From: Streptomyces sp. P3
GTDB lineage: Bacteria; Actinomycetota; Actinomycetes; Streptomycetales; Streptomycetaceae
Direction: 5' to 3'
NCBI RefSeq assembly: GCF_003032475.1
Contig: NZ_CP028369.1
Location: 5,952,001-6,016,000, forward strand
DNA length: 64,000 bases
Positions 4,572 to 13,279 of this stretch are shown here, in pieces (within the stretch, counting starts at the first letter, position 1; each line of letters opens with the position of its first letter). Made by a program: the position numbers and the translations under genes. The notes beneath the pieces were generated by a model. The model saw only the letters and a program-made list of their open reading frames with translations, did not search any database and was not told where the DNA came from.

Positions 4572-5291
4572 TCAGCCCTCCACACCGGTGGCGTCGTGGG
4601 CCGCTCCGACCGGCTTCGACTCCGGGGAGCCGCGTTGCCGCAGGTAGATGGAGAGCACCGCCATGGAGGCGACCGCGAGCAGCTCGGACTGCCAGTTCTG
4701 CAGGGTGCGGTTCCAGAACTCCGCCGCGCCCAGGTAGTCCGACCAGCTCAGGGGCGCCTGCAGTTGCCGCAGTCGCTGCTCGTTGGAGGCGGCCATGCCG
4801 GTGATCGACTGGACCAGCCAGGACAGCACGAAGATCGTCCCCATGACCAGCAGCAGGGAGTGCGAGTACAGCGCGCGCCGCCAGCCGCGGCTCCTGGCCC
4901 AGCGCGGCGAGCCGTCCTTGGCGTACGCGCCGACCATCTGGTCCTCGTCCGACTCGGCACCGGCCTTGTGCAGCTCCTTGGACTCCGGCGAACCGCGTTG
5001 CAGGAGCCATACCGTGGCCCCGACGTAGAGGAAGAACTGCAGGTACTCCGACTGCCAGTTCTCCGAGACGTCCACGGCGAAGTCGGACGAGGTGACGTAC
5101 GCGCCGAGTGAGACCTGCTGGAGTCCCTCCACGGCCATCTGGTCGTTGAAGTCGGCGTGCCCCGCGATCGCCTGGCCGATCAGGCTCAGCAGGAACGCGC
5201 CGAGGAAGAACAGCCCGAGCCCGTTGTCGTGCACGAAGCCCCGCAGGCCCCGGCGCTGTCGGGGCCCGGCGCCGGAGGTGCGGCCGGTCAT
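4572..5291 (-). CDS. DUF6766 family membrane protein
   Basis: A 239-aa protein with four membrane segments, near residues 24-42, 83-98, 142-160 and 202-218. It shows an internal duplication: each half ends with a pattern NWQSE-x-L followed about 17 residues later by a Leu-x-Gln-Arg-Gly-Ser-Pro-Glu-Ser-Lys box (first copy near 78-107, second near 195-226). DUF6766 proteins are common in actinobacteria and some proteobacteria, with unknown function, and are often beside stress genes. Its ATG overlaps the stop of the 27-aa peptide upstream (ATGA), so it is the third gene of the operon starting at 5786. Confidence 0.85.
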   Translation of the reverse strand: MTGRTSGAGPRQRRGLRGFVHDNGLGLFFLGAFLLSLIGQAIAGHADFNDQMAVEGLQQVSLGAYVTSSDFAVDVSENWQSEYLQFFLYVGATVWLLQRGSPESKELHKAGAESDEDQMVGAYAKDGSPRWARSRGWRRALYSHSLLLVMGTIFVLSWLVQSITGMAASNEQRLRQLQAPLSWSDYLGAAEFWNRTLQNWQSELLAVASMAVLSIYLRQRGSPESKPVGAAHDATGVEG

Positions 5292-6190: not shown

Positions 6191-6467
6191 CTTCCCGTCA
6201 TCTTCCTTCTTCGTCCGGTCCGTTACGTTCCGGACAGGTTCATGCCTTTTGGTGCGTATCCGTCACCGAGTTTCCCCACCGCTCGGCGGGAAACGTCCGC
6301 AAGCGATCGGCGCGGGAGCGCCGCAGCGGCCGCAACGCCGGGAACAGGGGCCACCGCCGCCCGCCTGCCCCGGTCGCCGTGCCGGCGTCGGCGTTACGTG
6401 ATCGAGTCGAGGGGTACCGGGAGACGGGCGGCGTGAGCGCGCCGAACCACGGCGTCTGGAGGTTGGC

Positions 6468-8957
6468 ATGGACTCATCGGTCGACCGGATCGCCCGACCG
6501 TGGGGCAGCCGCACCCCGTACGACCGGCACGCGTCCTGGCCCGCCCGCGTGGACACCCACCTCGAGGCGGGCGTCGCACCGGAGCAGGTGCAGCGCTGGG
6601 TGCGGGCCGCCTCGATCCTGCACTCCGACGGCGACGCCATGGACATCGCCGTCGTCGACGGGCGCACGGCCGGGGTGCGCGGCCGGGTGGACGACCGCGT
6701 CAACCGCGGACGCCTCGGTCCGAAGGACGCCTTCGGCTGGCAGGCGAACTCCTCCTCCGGCCGCCTGACCAGGCCGTTGGTCCGCGAGGACGGACGTCTG
6801 GTGGAGTGCGACTGGGACACCGCGATGGAGCGCGTCACCTCCCGCTCGCGCGAGCTGCTGACTCGGCGCGGCCCCGGATCGATCGGCTTCTACACCTCGG
6901 GGCAGCTGTACCTGGAGGAGTACTACACCCTCGCGGTGCTGGCCCGGGCCGGCATCGGCACGAGCCACCTGGACGGCAACACCCGCCTGTGCACGGCCAC
7001 CGCCGGCGAGGCGCTGAAGGAGTCCTTCGGCTGCGACGGACAGCCCGGCAGCTACGACGACATCGACCACGCGGACGTGATCGCGCTGTTCGGGCACAAC
7101 ATCGCCGAGACGCAGCCCGTGCAGTGGATGCGCATCCTCGACCGGCTGGAGGGCGGTGACCCGCCCCGCCTGGTGTGCGTCGACCCGCGTCCCACCCGGG
7201 TGGCACGCAGGGCGGCCGTCCACCTCGCCCCGCGCGTCGGCACCAACGTGGCGCTGCTGAACGCGCTCCTGCACGAGATCATCCGCGCCGGCCGCGTCGA
7301 CCACGACTACGTCCGTACGCACACCGTCGGCTTCGAGGAGCTGGCGTCCCGGGTCGAGGAGTGCACTCCCGAGTGGGCGGCGCGGATCTGCGACGTGCCG
7401 GCCGCGTCGATCCGTGCGGCCGCCGACCTCCTCGGCGCGGCCGACCGGCTCCTGTCCACGGTCCTGCAGGGCGTCTACCAGTCCCACCAGGCCACCGCCG
7501 CCGCCGTGCAGATCAACAACCTGCACCTGGTCCGCGGCATGCTCGGCCGGCCGGGCGCCGGCGTGCTGCAGATGAACGGGCAGCCCACCGCGCAGAACAC
7601 CCGCGAGTGCGGCGCCGACGGCGACCTGCCGGGCTTTCGCAACTGGCAGAACGACGACCACGTCGCCGACCTCGCCCGGGTGTGGAACGTCGAGCCCTCC
7701 ACCATCCCGCACCACACCCCGCCCACCCATGCGATGCAGATGTTCCGGTACGCCGAGCAGGGCTCGATCCGCATGCTGTGGATCAGCGGCACCAACCCGG
7801 CGGTGTCACTGCCCGAGCTGGCCCGGGTGCGCTCGATCCTGCAGCAGGAGCGTCTGTTCGTGGTGGTGCAGGACCTGTTCCTCACCGAGACCGCCCGGCT
7901 GGCCGACGTGGTGCTGCCCGCCGCGACGTGGGGCGAGAAGACCGGCACGGCCACCAACGCCGACCGCACCGTGCACCTGTCGGAGAAGGCGGTCGAACCG
8001 CCCGGCGAGGCCAGGCCCGACCTCGACGTCTTCCTCGACTACGCCGCCCGCATGGACTTCCGCGACAAGGACGGCGGCCCGCTGATCACCTGGCACGACC
8101 CGGAGTCCGCCTTCGAGGCGTGGAAACGCTGCAGCGCGGGGCGGCCGTGCGACTACACCGGCCTCACCTACGCCAAACTGCGCGGCGCGAGCGGCGTCCA
8201 GTGGCCGTGCAACGAACAGGCCCCCGACGGCACGCCGCGCCTCTACGCCGACGGCGTCGCCTGGGCGCATCCCGACGTCTGCGAGAGCTACGGCAAGGAC
8301 CTGGTGACGGGCGCCGCCGACGACGTCGTCGAGTACCGCTCCCTCAACCCGGACGGCAAGGCCGTGATCAGGGCGGCCGACTACCTGCCGCCGCACGAGG
8401 CACCCGACGAGGACCATCCCTTCCAGCTGACCACCGGCCGCACCCTCTACCACTTCCACACCCGCACCAAGACCGCGCGGGCGCCCCAGCTGAACGCCGC
8501 CGCCCCCGACGTGTGGGTGGAGGCCTCCGCGTCCGACGCCGCCGCCCTCGGGCTCCACGAGGGCGACCTGGTCGAGGTCGGCACCCGCCGCGGCGCCGTG
8601 CGGGGGCGGCTGCGCGTGACCGACATCCGCCCCGGACTGCTCTTCCTGCCTTTCCACTACGGCTACTGGGACACCGAGGGCGGACACGGGCCGGGCGGCG
8701 GCATGCCGGGACGCGCCGCCAACGAGACGACCGTCACCGACTGGGACCCCGCCTCCAAGCAGCCGCTGTTCAAGACCGCCGCTGCGGCGCTGCGGCTCGT
8801 GGAACGCGGGGACGGACGCGTCGCCCCCGCACCGACCACCACGGCGTCGGCGCCCTCCCGCGCCGACGCCGCGCCGGCCACGGTCGGCGGCCCGACCGCC
8901 CTCGTCACCGAGTCGTCCGTCCCTGCCCGGGACCGCCGAGCGCAGGAGGCACCGTGA
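6468..8957 (+). CDS. molybdopterin oxidoreductase (nitrate reductase/NapA-like) lacking the N-terminal [4Fe-4S] cysteines
   Basis: An 829-aa catalytic subunit of the DMSO-reductase superfamily. The core (about 110-530) has NapA/NasA-like signatures, including GNTRLCTATAG with the presumed Mo-ligand cysteine at residue 175, and the C-terminal dinucleotide-binding domain (about 640-790) has LTTGRTLYHFHTRTKT. The N-terminal domain is recognisable (VNRGRL-GPKD near 78-87 matches the usual VNRGRL-CPKG) but has no cysteine before residue 114, so the [4Fe-4S] cluster of this subfamily cannot form in the usual way. There is no Tat signal, so it is probably cytosolic. The last 50 residues are Ala/Thr/Pro-rich. 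ATG follows GGAGG. A GTGA overlap couples it to the next gene. The substrate is unknown. Confidence 0.85.
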   Translation: MDSSVDRIARPWGSRTPYDRHASWPARVDTHLEAGVAPEQVQRWVRAASILHSDGDAMDIAVVDGRTAGVRGRVDDRVNRGRLGPKDAFGWQANSSSGRLTRPLVREDGRLVECDWDTAMERVTSRSRELLTRRGPGSIGFYTSGQLYLEEYYTLAVLARAGIGTSHLDGNTRLCTATAGEALKESFGCDGQPGSYDDIDHADVIALFGHNIAETQPVQWMRILDRLEGGDPPRLVCVDPRPTRVARRAAVHLAPRVGTNVALLNALLHEIIRAGRVDHDYVRTHTVGFEELASRVEECTPEWAARICDVPAASIRAAADLLGAADRLLSTVLQGVYQSHQATAAAVQINNLHLVRGMLGRPGAGVLQMNGQPTAQNTRECGADGDLPGFRNWQNDDHVADLARVWNVEPSTIPHHTPPTHAMQMFRYAEQGSIRMLWISGTNPAVSLPELARVRSILQQERLFVVVQDLFLTETARLADVVLPAATWGEKTGTATNADRTVHLSEKAVEPPGEARPDLDVFLDYAARMDFRDKDGGPLITWHDPESAFEAWKRCSAGRPCDYTGLTYAKLRGASGVQWPCNEQAPDGTPRLYADGVAWAHPDVCESYGKDLVTGAADDVVEYRSLNPDGKAVIRAADYLPPHEAPDEDHPFQLTTGRTLYHFHTRTKTARAPQLNAAAPDVWVEASASDAAALGLHEGDLVEVGTRRGAVRGRLRVTDIRPGLLFLPFHYGYWDTEGGHGPGGGMPGRAANETTVTDWDPASKQPLFKTAAAALRLVERGDGRVAPAPTTTASAPSRADAAPATVGGPTALVTESSVPARDRRAQEAP

Positions 8958-9454
8958 ACGGCATCGCTTTCACCCTGCGCGCGCTGCACCACGGCGAGCG
9001 ACACCTCGCCGGTCAGCTGATCGCCGTCGCCGAACGCCACCGCACCGAGCACGAGGTCCACCATGTGGCCCGCGACCTCGCCGCCTGGTCCCGGGCCCAT
9101 GTCGCCTCCCTGGCCGAGGCCGCCCGCGCCCACGGCCTCGACCTCGACGGATCGCCCGGGGCTCCCGCGACCGGTGCGACCGGTGTGCTGTCGACGCTCC
9201 GGGAGAAGACCGCCGAGGCGGTGGGCCGCCGCCCCGAGCCCGGGCTGCTGCTCCTGCGTGATCTGCGGGAACTGCATCTGAGCGCCGCGGAGAACTCCCT
9301 GTACTGGGAGATGCTGGCGCAGGCCGCACAGGCCACGAAGGACGACGAGCTGCTCGCCGTCGTCTCCTCGTGTCACCCGCAGACGCTGCGCCAGATGCGG
9401 TGGACCAACACCCTGATCAAGAACCTCTCGCCACAGGTCCTCACCTGTCCGTGA
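8954..9454 (+). CDS. helical ferritin-like protein coupled to the molybdoenzyme
   Basis: A 166-aa, almost entirely helical protein. Two long helices (about 5-62) are rich in His and Glu (HHGERH, ERHRTEHEVHH), and after a Gly/Ala linker two more helices (about 92-155) carry LRDLRELHLSAAEN and CHPQTLRQMRW. Spaced E/H residues on a four-helix scaffold resemble ferritin-like or DUF892-like domains, but a complete di-iron motif cannot be assigned by eye. GTG at 8954 overlaps the TGA of the molybdopterin oxidoreductase (GTGA), so the two are translationally coupled and the product is probably a dedicated partner. Confidence 0.72.
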   Translation: MNGIAFTLRALHHGERHLAGQLIAVAERHRTEHEVHHVARDLAAWSRAHVASLAEAARAHGLDLDGSPGAPATGATGVLSTLREKTAEAVGRRPEPGLLLLRDLRELHLSAAENSLYWEMLAQAAQATKDDELLAVVSSCHPQTLRQMRWTNTLIKNLSPQVLTCP

Positions 9455-11879: not shown

Positions 11880-11968
11880 GGCCGCCGCGGGCCCGTCGAC
11901 GCCGCTTAGCCCGCGGACGTCAGCGTTTCGTCATGTGTCGAAGGCCCCGTCGCCGGGCCGCCTCGGCC

Positions 11969-11974
11969 TACGGT
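11969..11974 (+). promoter_or_regulatory. -10 box (TACGGT) for the molybdoprotein gene
   Basis: TACGGT ends 6 nt before the ATG at 11981, and no Shine-Dalgarno sequence precedes that ATG, so the transcript is probably leaderless. It forms a divergent promoter pair with the box at 11874-11879. Confidence 0.5.
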
Positions 11975-11980
11975 CGGCGC

Positions 11981-13279
11981 ATGTCACGGTTGCCCACCCT
12001 GCCGTCCCTGTCCGCCTCCCCCCGCCTGCCGACCTCTCCCCGGTTCTGGCGCAGCCCGCTGCGCGGTCCGTGGTTCACCTCCGTCCTCGGTGTCGTGCTG
12101 CTCGGCGGGATCACCGTGCTGTTCGTGACGGGGCTGCTGTCGTACGCCGCCTACAACCCGGATCTCTCGCCGGTGAACGACAAGACCCCGGACAAGGGGC
12201 TGCTCGGCTTCTACCTCTTCGCGTGGCCGACGGACCCGCCCTGGCTCTACCGGCTCACCCAGGGCGTCCACGTCACCCTCGGGATCACCCTGATCCCCGT
12301 CCTGCTGGCGAAACTGTGGTCGGTGATCCCCCGGCTGTTCGCGCTGCCGCCCGCGCGGTCGCTCACCCACGCGCTGGAGCGCCTGTCACTGCTCCTGCTG
12401 GTCGGCGGCGCGCTGTTCGAATTCGTCACCGGCGTGCTCAACGTCCAGCTCGACTACGTCTTCCCCGGCTCCTTCTATCCGCTGCACTTCTACGGGGCGT
12501 GGGTGTTCTTCGCCGCGTTCACCGCCCACGCGGTACTGCGCGCGCCGGCCGCCGTACGCAACCTGCGCCGACTGCGGGACGAGCCGGAGCCCGCCCGGGA
12601 GGAGGCCGCCCGCGGCGCGGAGGTCTCGCTGACCGCGCCGCGTCCCGCGGAGCCCACCGTGACGCGGCGGGGCGCGCTCTGGCTGGTCGGAGGCGGTTGC
12701 CTGCTGCTGTTCGTCACGTCGGCGGGGCGGAGCTTCGACGGGCTCGCCCGGCGGACTGCCTTCCTCGCGCCGCACGGGGGTGCGGAGCCGGGCAGCGGCC
12801 CCGGCGGCTTCCAGATCAACAAGACGGCCGTCTCCCGGGGGATCGTCGCGGCCGAGACGAGCGCGGACGCGTGGCGGCTGACCGTCACCGGGCCCGCCGG
12901 GACCGTCCGGCTGAGCCGGGCCCAGCTGCTCGAACTCCCCCTGCACAGCGCGGCGCTGCCCATCGCGTGCGTGGAGGGCTGGTCCACCTCCGACCAGTGG
13001 TGGCGGGGCGTGCGGCTGCGTGATCTCGCCGCCCTGGTCGGCCACGACGCGGACGCGGCGCCCGACGTCCTGGTCGAGTCGCTCCAGCGGAGCGGGGCCT
13101 TCCGCCGGGCGGCGCTGCGCGCGAACCAGGTGCGCGATCCGCGCTCCCTGCTGGCCCTGGACGTCAACGGTGAGCCGCTGACCCCCGACCACGGATTCCC
13201 GGCCCGGATCATCGTGCCCGCCGCGCCCGGCGTGCTGAACACCAAATGGGTCGCCCGGCTGACGTTCGGCGAGCTGTGA
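11981..13279 (+). CDS. sulfite-oxidase-like molybdoprotein fused to a cytochrome-b-like membrane domain
   Basis: A 432-aa protein. The N-terminal half (about 25-205) has four hydrophobic helices with histidines placed for heme b (QGVHVTLG; YPLHFYGAWVF; FTAHAVL), as in cytochrome b561-type domains. A fifth helix (about 230-248) anchors the C-terminal half, which is an oxidoreductase molybdopterin-binding domain: PIACVEGWSTSDQWWRG carries the presumed Mo-ligand cysteine (near 330), and DHGFPARIIVPAAPGVLNTKWV is the family C-motif. It probably passes electrons between a periplasmic-side Mo site and membrane carriers; the substrate is unknown. It starts the strand that continues with the small membrane gene at 13338. 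Confidence 0.84.
   Translation: MSRLPTLPSLSASPRLPTSPRFWRSPLRGPWFTSVLGVVLLGGITVLFVTGLLSYAAYNPDLSPVNDKTPDKGLLGFYLFAWPTDPPWLYRLTQGVHVTLGITLIPVLLAKLWSVIPRLFALPPARSLTHALERLSLLLLVGGALFEFVTGVLNVQLDYVFPGSFYPLHFYGAWVFFAAFTAHAVLRAPAAVRNLRRLRDEPEPAREEAARGAEVSLTAPRPAEPTVTRRGALWLVGGGCLLLFVTSAGRSFDGLARRTAFLAPHGGAEPGSGPGGFQINKTAVSRGIVAAETSADAWRLTVTGPAGTVRLSRAQLLELPLHSAALPIACVEGWSTSDQWWRGVRLRDLAALVGHDADAAPDVLVESLQRSGAFRRAALRANQVRDPRSLLALDVNGEPLTPDHGFPARIIVPAAPGVLNTKWVARLTFGEL

Follow-up and report, generated by a model that had tools for sequence, protein, structure and literature searches.

A Streptomyces molybdenum oxidoreductase without cluster cysteines and its three-cysteine sister form in Actinomycetota

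The window analyzed here, 64,000 nucleotides of Streptomyces sp. P3 (contig NZ_CP028369.1, positions 5,952,001 to 6,016,000, forward strand), contains an operon in which a molybdopterin oxidoreductase of 829 amino acids (6468..8957, + strand) is followed by a helical, ferritin-like partner protein of 166 amino acids (8954..9454, + strand). The enzyme has no cysteine at any of the four positions that hold the N-terminal [4Fe–4S] cluster in related proteins, and we call this cluster-less type form B; a sister type, form A, 58 to 65% identical to it, keeps three of the cluster cysteines. We read form B, with a probability of roughly 0.5, as a cluster-free branch of a Cys-ligated Actinomycetota family resembling NapA, NasA, and formate dehydrogenase (Fdh), in which the molybdenum (Mo) site is kept, the internal iron–sulfur (Fe–S) relay is absent, and the accessory partner is shared between the two forms.

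Cluster site of the enzyme

The source genome is a single contig of 9.85 Mb, and the nearest homologues of the enzyme are from Streptomyces. Pfam analysis found both Mo domains, PF00384 and PF01568, while Molybdop_Fe4S4 (PF04879) scored 13.2, under its cut-off of 22.7. A phmmer search against the PDB aligned residues 40 to 730 with NapA of Desulfovibrio desulfuricans and placed the four cluster cysteines on Ser49 (6612..6614), His52 (6621..6623), Asp56 (6633..6635), and Gly84 (6717..6719; all on the + strand), with Asp87 on the Gly of the NapA segment CLKG. The usual C-x2-C-x3-C...C pattern is thus replaced by S49-x2-H52-x3-D56...G84-P-K-D87, where Gly84 occupies a position that is non-Cys in form A as well, and where the codons at 6723..6728 (+) specify the retained Lys86 and Asp87, the latter changing along with the cluster residues. 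The presumed Mo ligand is Cys175 (6990..6992, +), within RLCTATA. An earlier note, made from the letters of the window alone, had described a protein with no cysteine in its first 113 residues, with GPKD at the usual CPKG site and with the presumed Mo ligand retained, and had called for alignment of the N terminus with NapA; the open reading frame translation and that alignment agree with it on every one of these points. A cluster built from other conserved N-terminal cysteines was considered and rejected, as residues 1 to 113 hold none and the single Cys at 114 is variable. The predicted model (predicted local distance difference test score, 88.3) has the full NapA fold, and its best structural matches in the PDB are D. 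desulfuricans NapA (2jio; template modeling score, 0.81/0.93).

The homologue search for the enzyme gave at least 7777 matches among a capped set of 7998 scored sequences, of which the best 120 were aligned with the window enzyme (P0001). In these 121 rows S49, H52, D56, D87, and C175 are each found 121 times; at residue 84, 118 rows have Gly and the other 3 have Glu. Some of the close homologues carry one to three cysteines ahead of the Mo ligand, never at the cluster positions. Over 27 form B loci the codons for residues 52, 56, and 87 differ silently (CAC/CAT, GAC/GAT), so that these residues look held by selection, and to judge by the sequences compared, the cluster-less motif is under selection. 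Because of this silent variation and the uniform motif of the close homologues, a sequence error or a pseudogene was rejected. The earlier note had held that close homologues keeping the four cysteines would point to such an error; homologues of at least 80% identity likewise lack them, and the loss is genuine. Frameshifted, truncated, or decaying enzyme copies do occur elsewhere (L048, L026/L028, L160, L161, and L172), and in one of these, L161 from genus g3, which has four in-frame stops, His52 is gone.

Two forms of one enzyme

An alignment of 171 rows, assembled from the loci, every 8th of P0002 to P0121, and every 2nd of P0243 to P0362, with fragments dropped, separates into 129 form A and 42 form B rows with zero intermediates. 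All 129 form A rows have Cys at 49, 52, and 56 and Gly at both 84 and 87. Form B has H52, D56, and D87 in 42 of 42 rows, with Ser (38), Thr (3), or Ala (1) at residue 49 and Gly (30) or Asp (12) at residue 84. Lys86 and the presumed Mo ligand Cys175 are present in 171/171 rows of both forms, and 176 columns are invariant across 45 rows spanning the two. Seven columns switch at more than 85% in both forms, namely 11, 49, 52, 56, 87, 202 (C to A), and 328 (V to L), and four of them (49, 52, 56, and 87) fall at the cluster site.

A tree was computed from 100 rows with the cluster columns removed; it comprised all 42 form B rows, 55 of the 129 form A rows, and the three best paralogues from the enzyme's own genome as outgroup. 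A single change separates A from B in this tree, and the cluster-site residues changed as one set (C, C, C and Gly87 versus S, H, D and Asp87) on one branch. We take the cysteines to be the older state because each of the three paralogues carries four of them. Classified by motif, the best 120 of the 7777 homologues are form B without exception (120/120), and the best 120 matches of the cysteine-bearing relative P0243 consist of 119 form A sequences and one fragment without the N terminus; correspondingly, the Pfam Fe4S4 domain is found in 0 of the former 120 and in 119 of the 120 matches listed for P0243. One of the latter is labelled Thermomicrobiaceae, by name only, in a family taken here as one of Actinomycetota.

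In a phylum sample of 296 genomes, searched at E ≤1e-150 for the enzyme and E ≤1e-4 for the partner, the enzyme was found in 18 genomes, the partner in 18, and both in 16; two of the 18 enzymes (L024 and L025) carry the cysteines. Four genomes of this sample call for comment. The enzyme of G141 runs to the end of its contig; in G197 the enzyme is of form A, and no partner was found; G237 carries a frameshifted form B gene that adjoins the partner; and in G270 (L049) the fetched stretch held a partner-like gene, no enzyme, and, next to the partner-like gene, a frame that looks HPP-like by eye. A genome scan seeded with an L024-type (form A) protein gave at least 80 loci, a sample biased toward form A. 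In genus g3 the enzyme was found in 29 of 118 genomes, at 30 loci (27 B, 1 A, and 2 fragmentary or decayed), and one genome, G408, holds both forms (L152 and L162), each with its own partner. Among 150 Streptomyces genomes 28 have the enzyme; 25 are form B, two are form A, and L171 is B-like with Gly at 54.

Two further features of the alignment were observed. Five cysteines (308, 555, 561, 581, and 605; window 7389-8282) are present together in 40/42 form B versus 56/129 form A rows. Past the folded domains, residues 783 to 796 (window 8814-8855) form a conserved G...APTTTAS-like tail that is common to forms A and B and occurs as well in P0243, which has no partner.

The helical partner

The GTG start of the partner at 8954 overlaps the TGA stop of the enzyme, which agrees with the earlier note's description of a GTGA-coupled, ferritin-like helical protein in the same operon. 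The partner adjoins the enzyme at 27 of 28 form B loci, so it is indeed conserved beside cluster-less forms, and also at 64 of 71 cysteine-bearing form A loci (one genome counted twice). In three Streptomyces genomes whose form B gene is unbroken, it was not found anywhere; in a fourth partner-less genome of that genus, form B is interrupted by an internal stop. To the question raised in the earlier note, whether all cluster-less homologues have the partner next door, the answer is yes for nearly all loci and no for those three genomes. As it also stands beside form A, the partner is not specific to the cluster-less form, and its confinement to that form was rejected.

The partner sequence contains 6.6% His and 7.2% Glu, and of its 23 His and Glu residues only E15, H29, and H49 are conserved at 80% or more in 50 rows. 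It has the four-helix ferritin-like fold. Ferritin-like diiron proteins bind their metals through two ExxH motifs and two further Glu residues. This set is not present in the partner, which in this differs from the ferritin-like superfamily (YciE/YciF, Bfr, XCC3681): residue 46 is Cys in 25, Ser in 22, Leu in 2, and Val in 1 of the 50 rows and Glu in none, and the ExxH of helix 4 occurs in 2/50. A role as a diiron ferroxidase is not supported, and the search for metal-binding residues that the earlier note had proposed came out negative for conserved diiron motifs. We infer that the partner has an accessory or maturation role common to forms A and B and does not act as a replacement relay.

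Promoter and probable expression under stress

The stretch GTTA-N15-GGGTAC at 6393..6417 (+ strand), 75 nt ahead of the ATG, was recognized from its sequence as a SigB/SigF-type promoter-like site; its GTTA is one base off the GTTT of a typical -35 element, which is combined with a GGGTA -10 element in such promoters. The pattern GTTN-N13-18-GGGTA, which is of the mycobacterial SigF type (PMC4694148), was sought within 120 nt upstream of the enzyme gene, and control windows were drawn from these loci farther downstream and on the opposite strand. It was found at 22 of 30 g3 loci versus 9 of 2222 control windows and at 9 of 28 Streptomyces loci versus 1 of 2087. With a stricter pattern and a longer window, 20 of the 98 loci of the first set had it (A, 10/69; B, 10/27; two loci without an assigned form), where about 1 was expected from shuffles. 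The enzyme is probably made under general stress sigma factors.

A pair of Mycobacterium smegmatis genes resembles these loci in gene order, annotation, and SigF-type promoter, and it is by these features, not by sequence, that we liken the two. According to the accessible part of the report, transcription from a GTTT-N16-GGGTA promoter makes two genes SigF dependent, namely MSMEG_2837, annotated as nitrate reductase NarB, and MSMEG_2838, a conserved hypothetical (PMC4694148). From the gene order and promoter, the pair would be the same operon. In the available text of another study, deletion of narB in M. smegmatis left nitrate assimilation and nitrate reductase activity unaffected, and narB expression was not detected under the conditions of that study (PMC7816997). 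If the pair is indeed the same operon, nitrate reduction is unlikely to be the main role of the enzyme.

Proposed mechanism and alternatives

Form B should bind bis-molybdopterin guanine dinucleotide and turn over, because the presumed Mo ligand and Lys86 are kept in all 171 rows, the 176 invariant columns span both forms, and the predicted model retains the full NapA fold. S49, H52, D56, and D87 could act as a polar plug which keeps the loop of the lost cluster in place against the pterin. Without an Fe–S relay, electrons would reach Mo directly through the funnel, or an oxygen atom passed from one substrate to another would do so, a route that may resemble that of dimethyl sulfoxide (DMSO) reductase, so that electrons would pass straight to Mo or the reaction would be balanced inside the active site. 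The partner would have its accessory or maturation role in both forms, and the change might have yielded an enzyme able to function in air and during iron or oxidative stress.

Several observations speak against this interpretation. In NarG, as described in the accessible part of the source, insertion of the FS0 cluster precedes that of the molybdenum cofactor and is obligatory (PMC5123574), and for this reason a cluster-free enzyme would need another order of maturation; the plug may replace the NarG-like, cluster-dependent folding step. The confidence of the model dips to 84 around residues 51 to 60, where the plug is placed. The forms differ beyond the cluster, in the switching columns 11, 202, and 328 and in length near 740, 748, and 817, and the branch between them has a Shimodaira–Hasegawa-like approximate likelihood ratio of only 86 in a quick tree with long outgroups. 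Form A, to judge from its motif, may itself carry a [3Fe–4S] cluster or none. Finally, the promoter pattern is absent from 19 of the 28 Streptomyces loci and likewise from most loci of the first set.

A more far-reaching reading, which we hold as a tentative possibility, sees the Fe–S site as converted, without any change in the chemistry, to a Ser/His/Asp/Asp site that either binds another metal or allows Mo to be supplied directly; the four-, three-, and zero-Cys relatives would then be stages toward iron independence and air safety, and the partner a degenerate ferritin-like protein dedicated to the enzyme. A rival explanation is unlikely, namely that Ser49, His52, Asp56, and Asp87 now form a mononuclear site for Fe, Mn, or Zn with a structural or electron-relaying role. 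One His with two Asp is a plausible metal ligand set, and H52, D56, and D87 are uniform in the 42 form B rows and switched together; however, Ser49 is replaced by Thr or Ala in 4 of these rows, and a salt-bridged plug accounts for the same residues.

Somewhat less likely still is that form B catalyzes non-redox or internally balanced chemistry, such as hydration or hydroxyl or oxygen transfer between two substrates, for which a relay is unneeded; the earlier note had also named a non-redox or different-donor enzyme. The only predicted relay has been lost, and the accessible part of a superfamily survey offers the pyrogallol-phloroglucinol transhydroxylase PgtL as a precedent for hydroxyl transfer (PMC10100899), but the few columns that separate form B from the three-Cys form A suggest that the two share their pocket. 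The earlier note had suggested that the ferritin-like partner may substitute for the lost electron route, an idea that we regard as improbable: the operon with its overlapping genes, the ferritin-like fold, and the near-constant presence of the partner beside form B fit it, yet the partner stands about as often beside form A, was not found in the three Streptomyces genomes named above in which form B is unbroken, and does not conserve ExxH (residue 46 is Cys or Ser in 47/50 rows). Very improbable, too, is a catalytically dead relative kept as a scaffold, which the loss of the usual cofactor and the lineages without activity mentioned in the available text of the survey (PMC10100899) might suggest but which is difficult to reconcile with a presumed Mo ligand present in every row and 176 columns invariant across the two forms. 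Very improbable as well is a cluster relocated to Cys308, 555, 561, and 605, for although all four are found in 42/42 form B versus 68/129 form A rows, Cys308 is fixed in both forms, the other three vary piecemeal in form A, and we are not aware of a cluster in this part of the fold.

Neighboring genes

Neighbors were compared over 83 stretches, with up to about 4 kb on each side for named loci, and the top 40 clusters were inspected; most were unannotated, and no hint to the substrate was obtained from them. When frames that overlap the enzyme are set aside, the largest clusters have members in 21/83 stretches (an unannotated frame) and in 17/83. The 17-member cluster is HPP-like (PF04982, tested on L058 only). 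At 16 form A loci (L058, L067, L081, L133, and 12 more) the HPP-like membrane frame lies just after or overlaps the partner, and one form B locus has a member elsewhere. HPP proteins act as nitrite transporters in plants and cyanobacteria. A small gene recurs beside the operon, at L088:3424-3825 and at five more loci, and its product, examined at L088 only, matches DUF326. In the window, 11933-13279 (+) holds a second molybdenum-type gene, with a PF00174 domain behind a weak, sub-cut-off cytochrome b561 match, and 4575-5291 (-) encodes a DUF6766 membrane protein; a similar frame was recognized by eye in a seven-stretch cluster near other loci, e.g., L099.

Significance

The enzyme described here is a molybdenum enzyme of soil actinobacteria that exists in two closely related forms. 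The cluster in such enzymes is thought to carry electrons, and the family provides a natural test of its purpose, since numerous A and B enzymes are available that are about 60% identical and show few fixed differences outside the cluster site. A comparison of A with B would show separately what the cluster contributes to electron transfer, to maturation, and to sensitivity toward oxygen. The names given to this family in databases, "nitrate reductase" and "anaerobic selenocysteine-containing dehydrogenase," are unsupported. A literature search, with most subscription journals outside its scope, found no description of the two forms.

Comparison with known molybdenum enzymes

With the Cys-ligated MopB lineage of NapA, NasA, and the cytoplasmic Fdh, the enzyme shares the fold, PF00384 and PF01568, a Cys at the Mo-ligand position, and Lys86; it differs in having none of the cluster cysteines and thus no four-Cys [4Fe–4S] motif, and in the sequence around the Mo ligand, which is RLCTATA compared to RLCM in NapA and RLCH in FdhF of the hydrogen-dependent CO2 reductase. 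None of 25 listed NCBIfam models reaches its cut-off on the enzyme; the bit scores (with cut-offs in parentheses) are 456.8 (666.25) for the Fdh alpha subunit, 390.9 (1100) for NasC, 373.1 (1000) for haloarchaeal NasA, and 304.8 (930.55) for NapA.

Cluster-free members of the superfamily are known. The accessible part of the survey cited above refers to several, naming the Ser-ligated DorA, and a figure legend marks one family as cluster-lost (PMC10100899). DorA, TorA, and BisC are bis-pyranopterin guanine dinucleotide enzymes without an N-terminal cluster, and the window enzyme likewise shows no cluster motif; however, Mo is ligated by Ser in these proteins (PMC10100899, available text), whereas the enzyme has Cys175 and is far closer to NapA. 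The cluster loss is taken as independent of that in DorA because the enzyme is Cys-ligated and NapA-like. The nearest parallel for form A is found in AioA and IdrA, which hold a [3Fe–4S] cluster, since all 129 form A rows combine CxxCxxxC with a non-Cys fourth position; the difference is that form A keeps the Cys at the Mo position, while IdrA, according to the same part of the survey, has no amino acid ligand (PMC10100899). As far as these sequence comparisons indicate, form B appears to represent a separate cluster loss among Cys-ligated enzymes.

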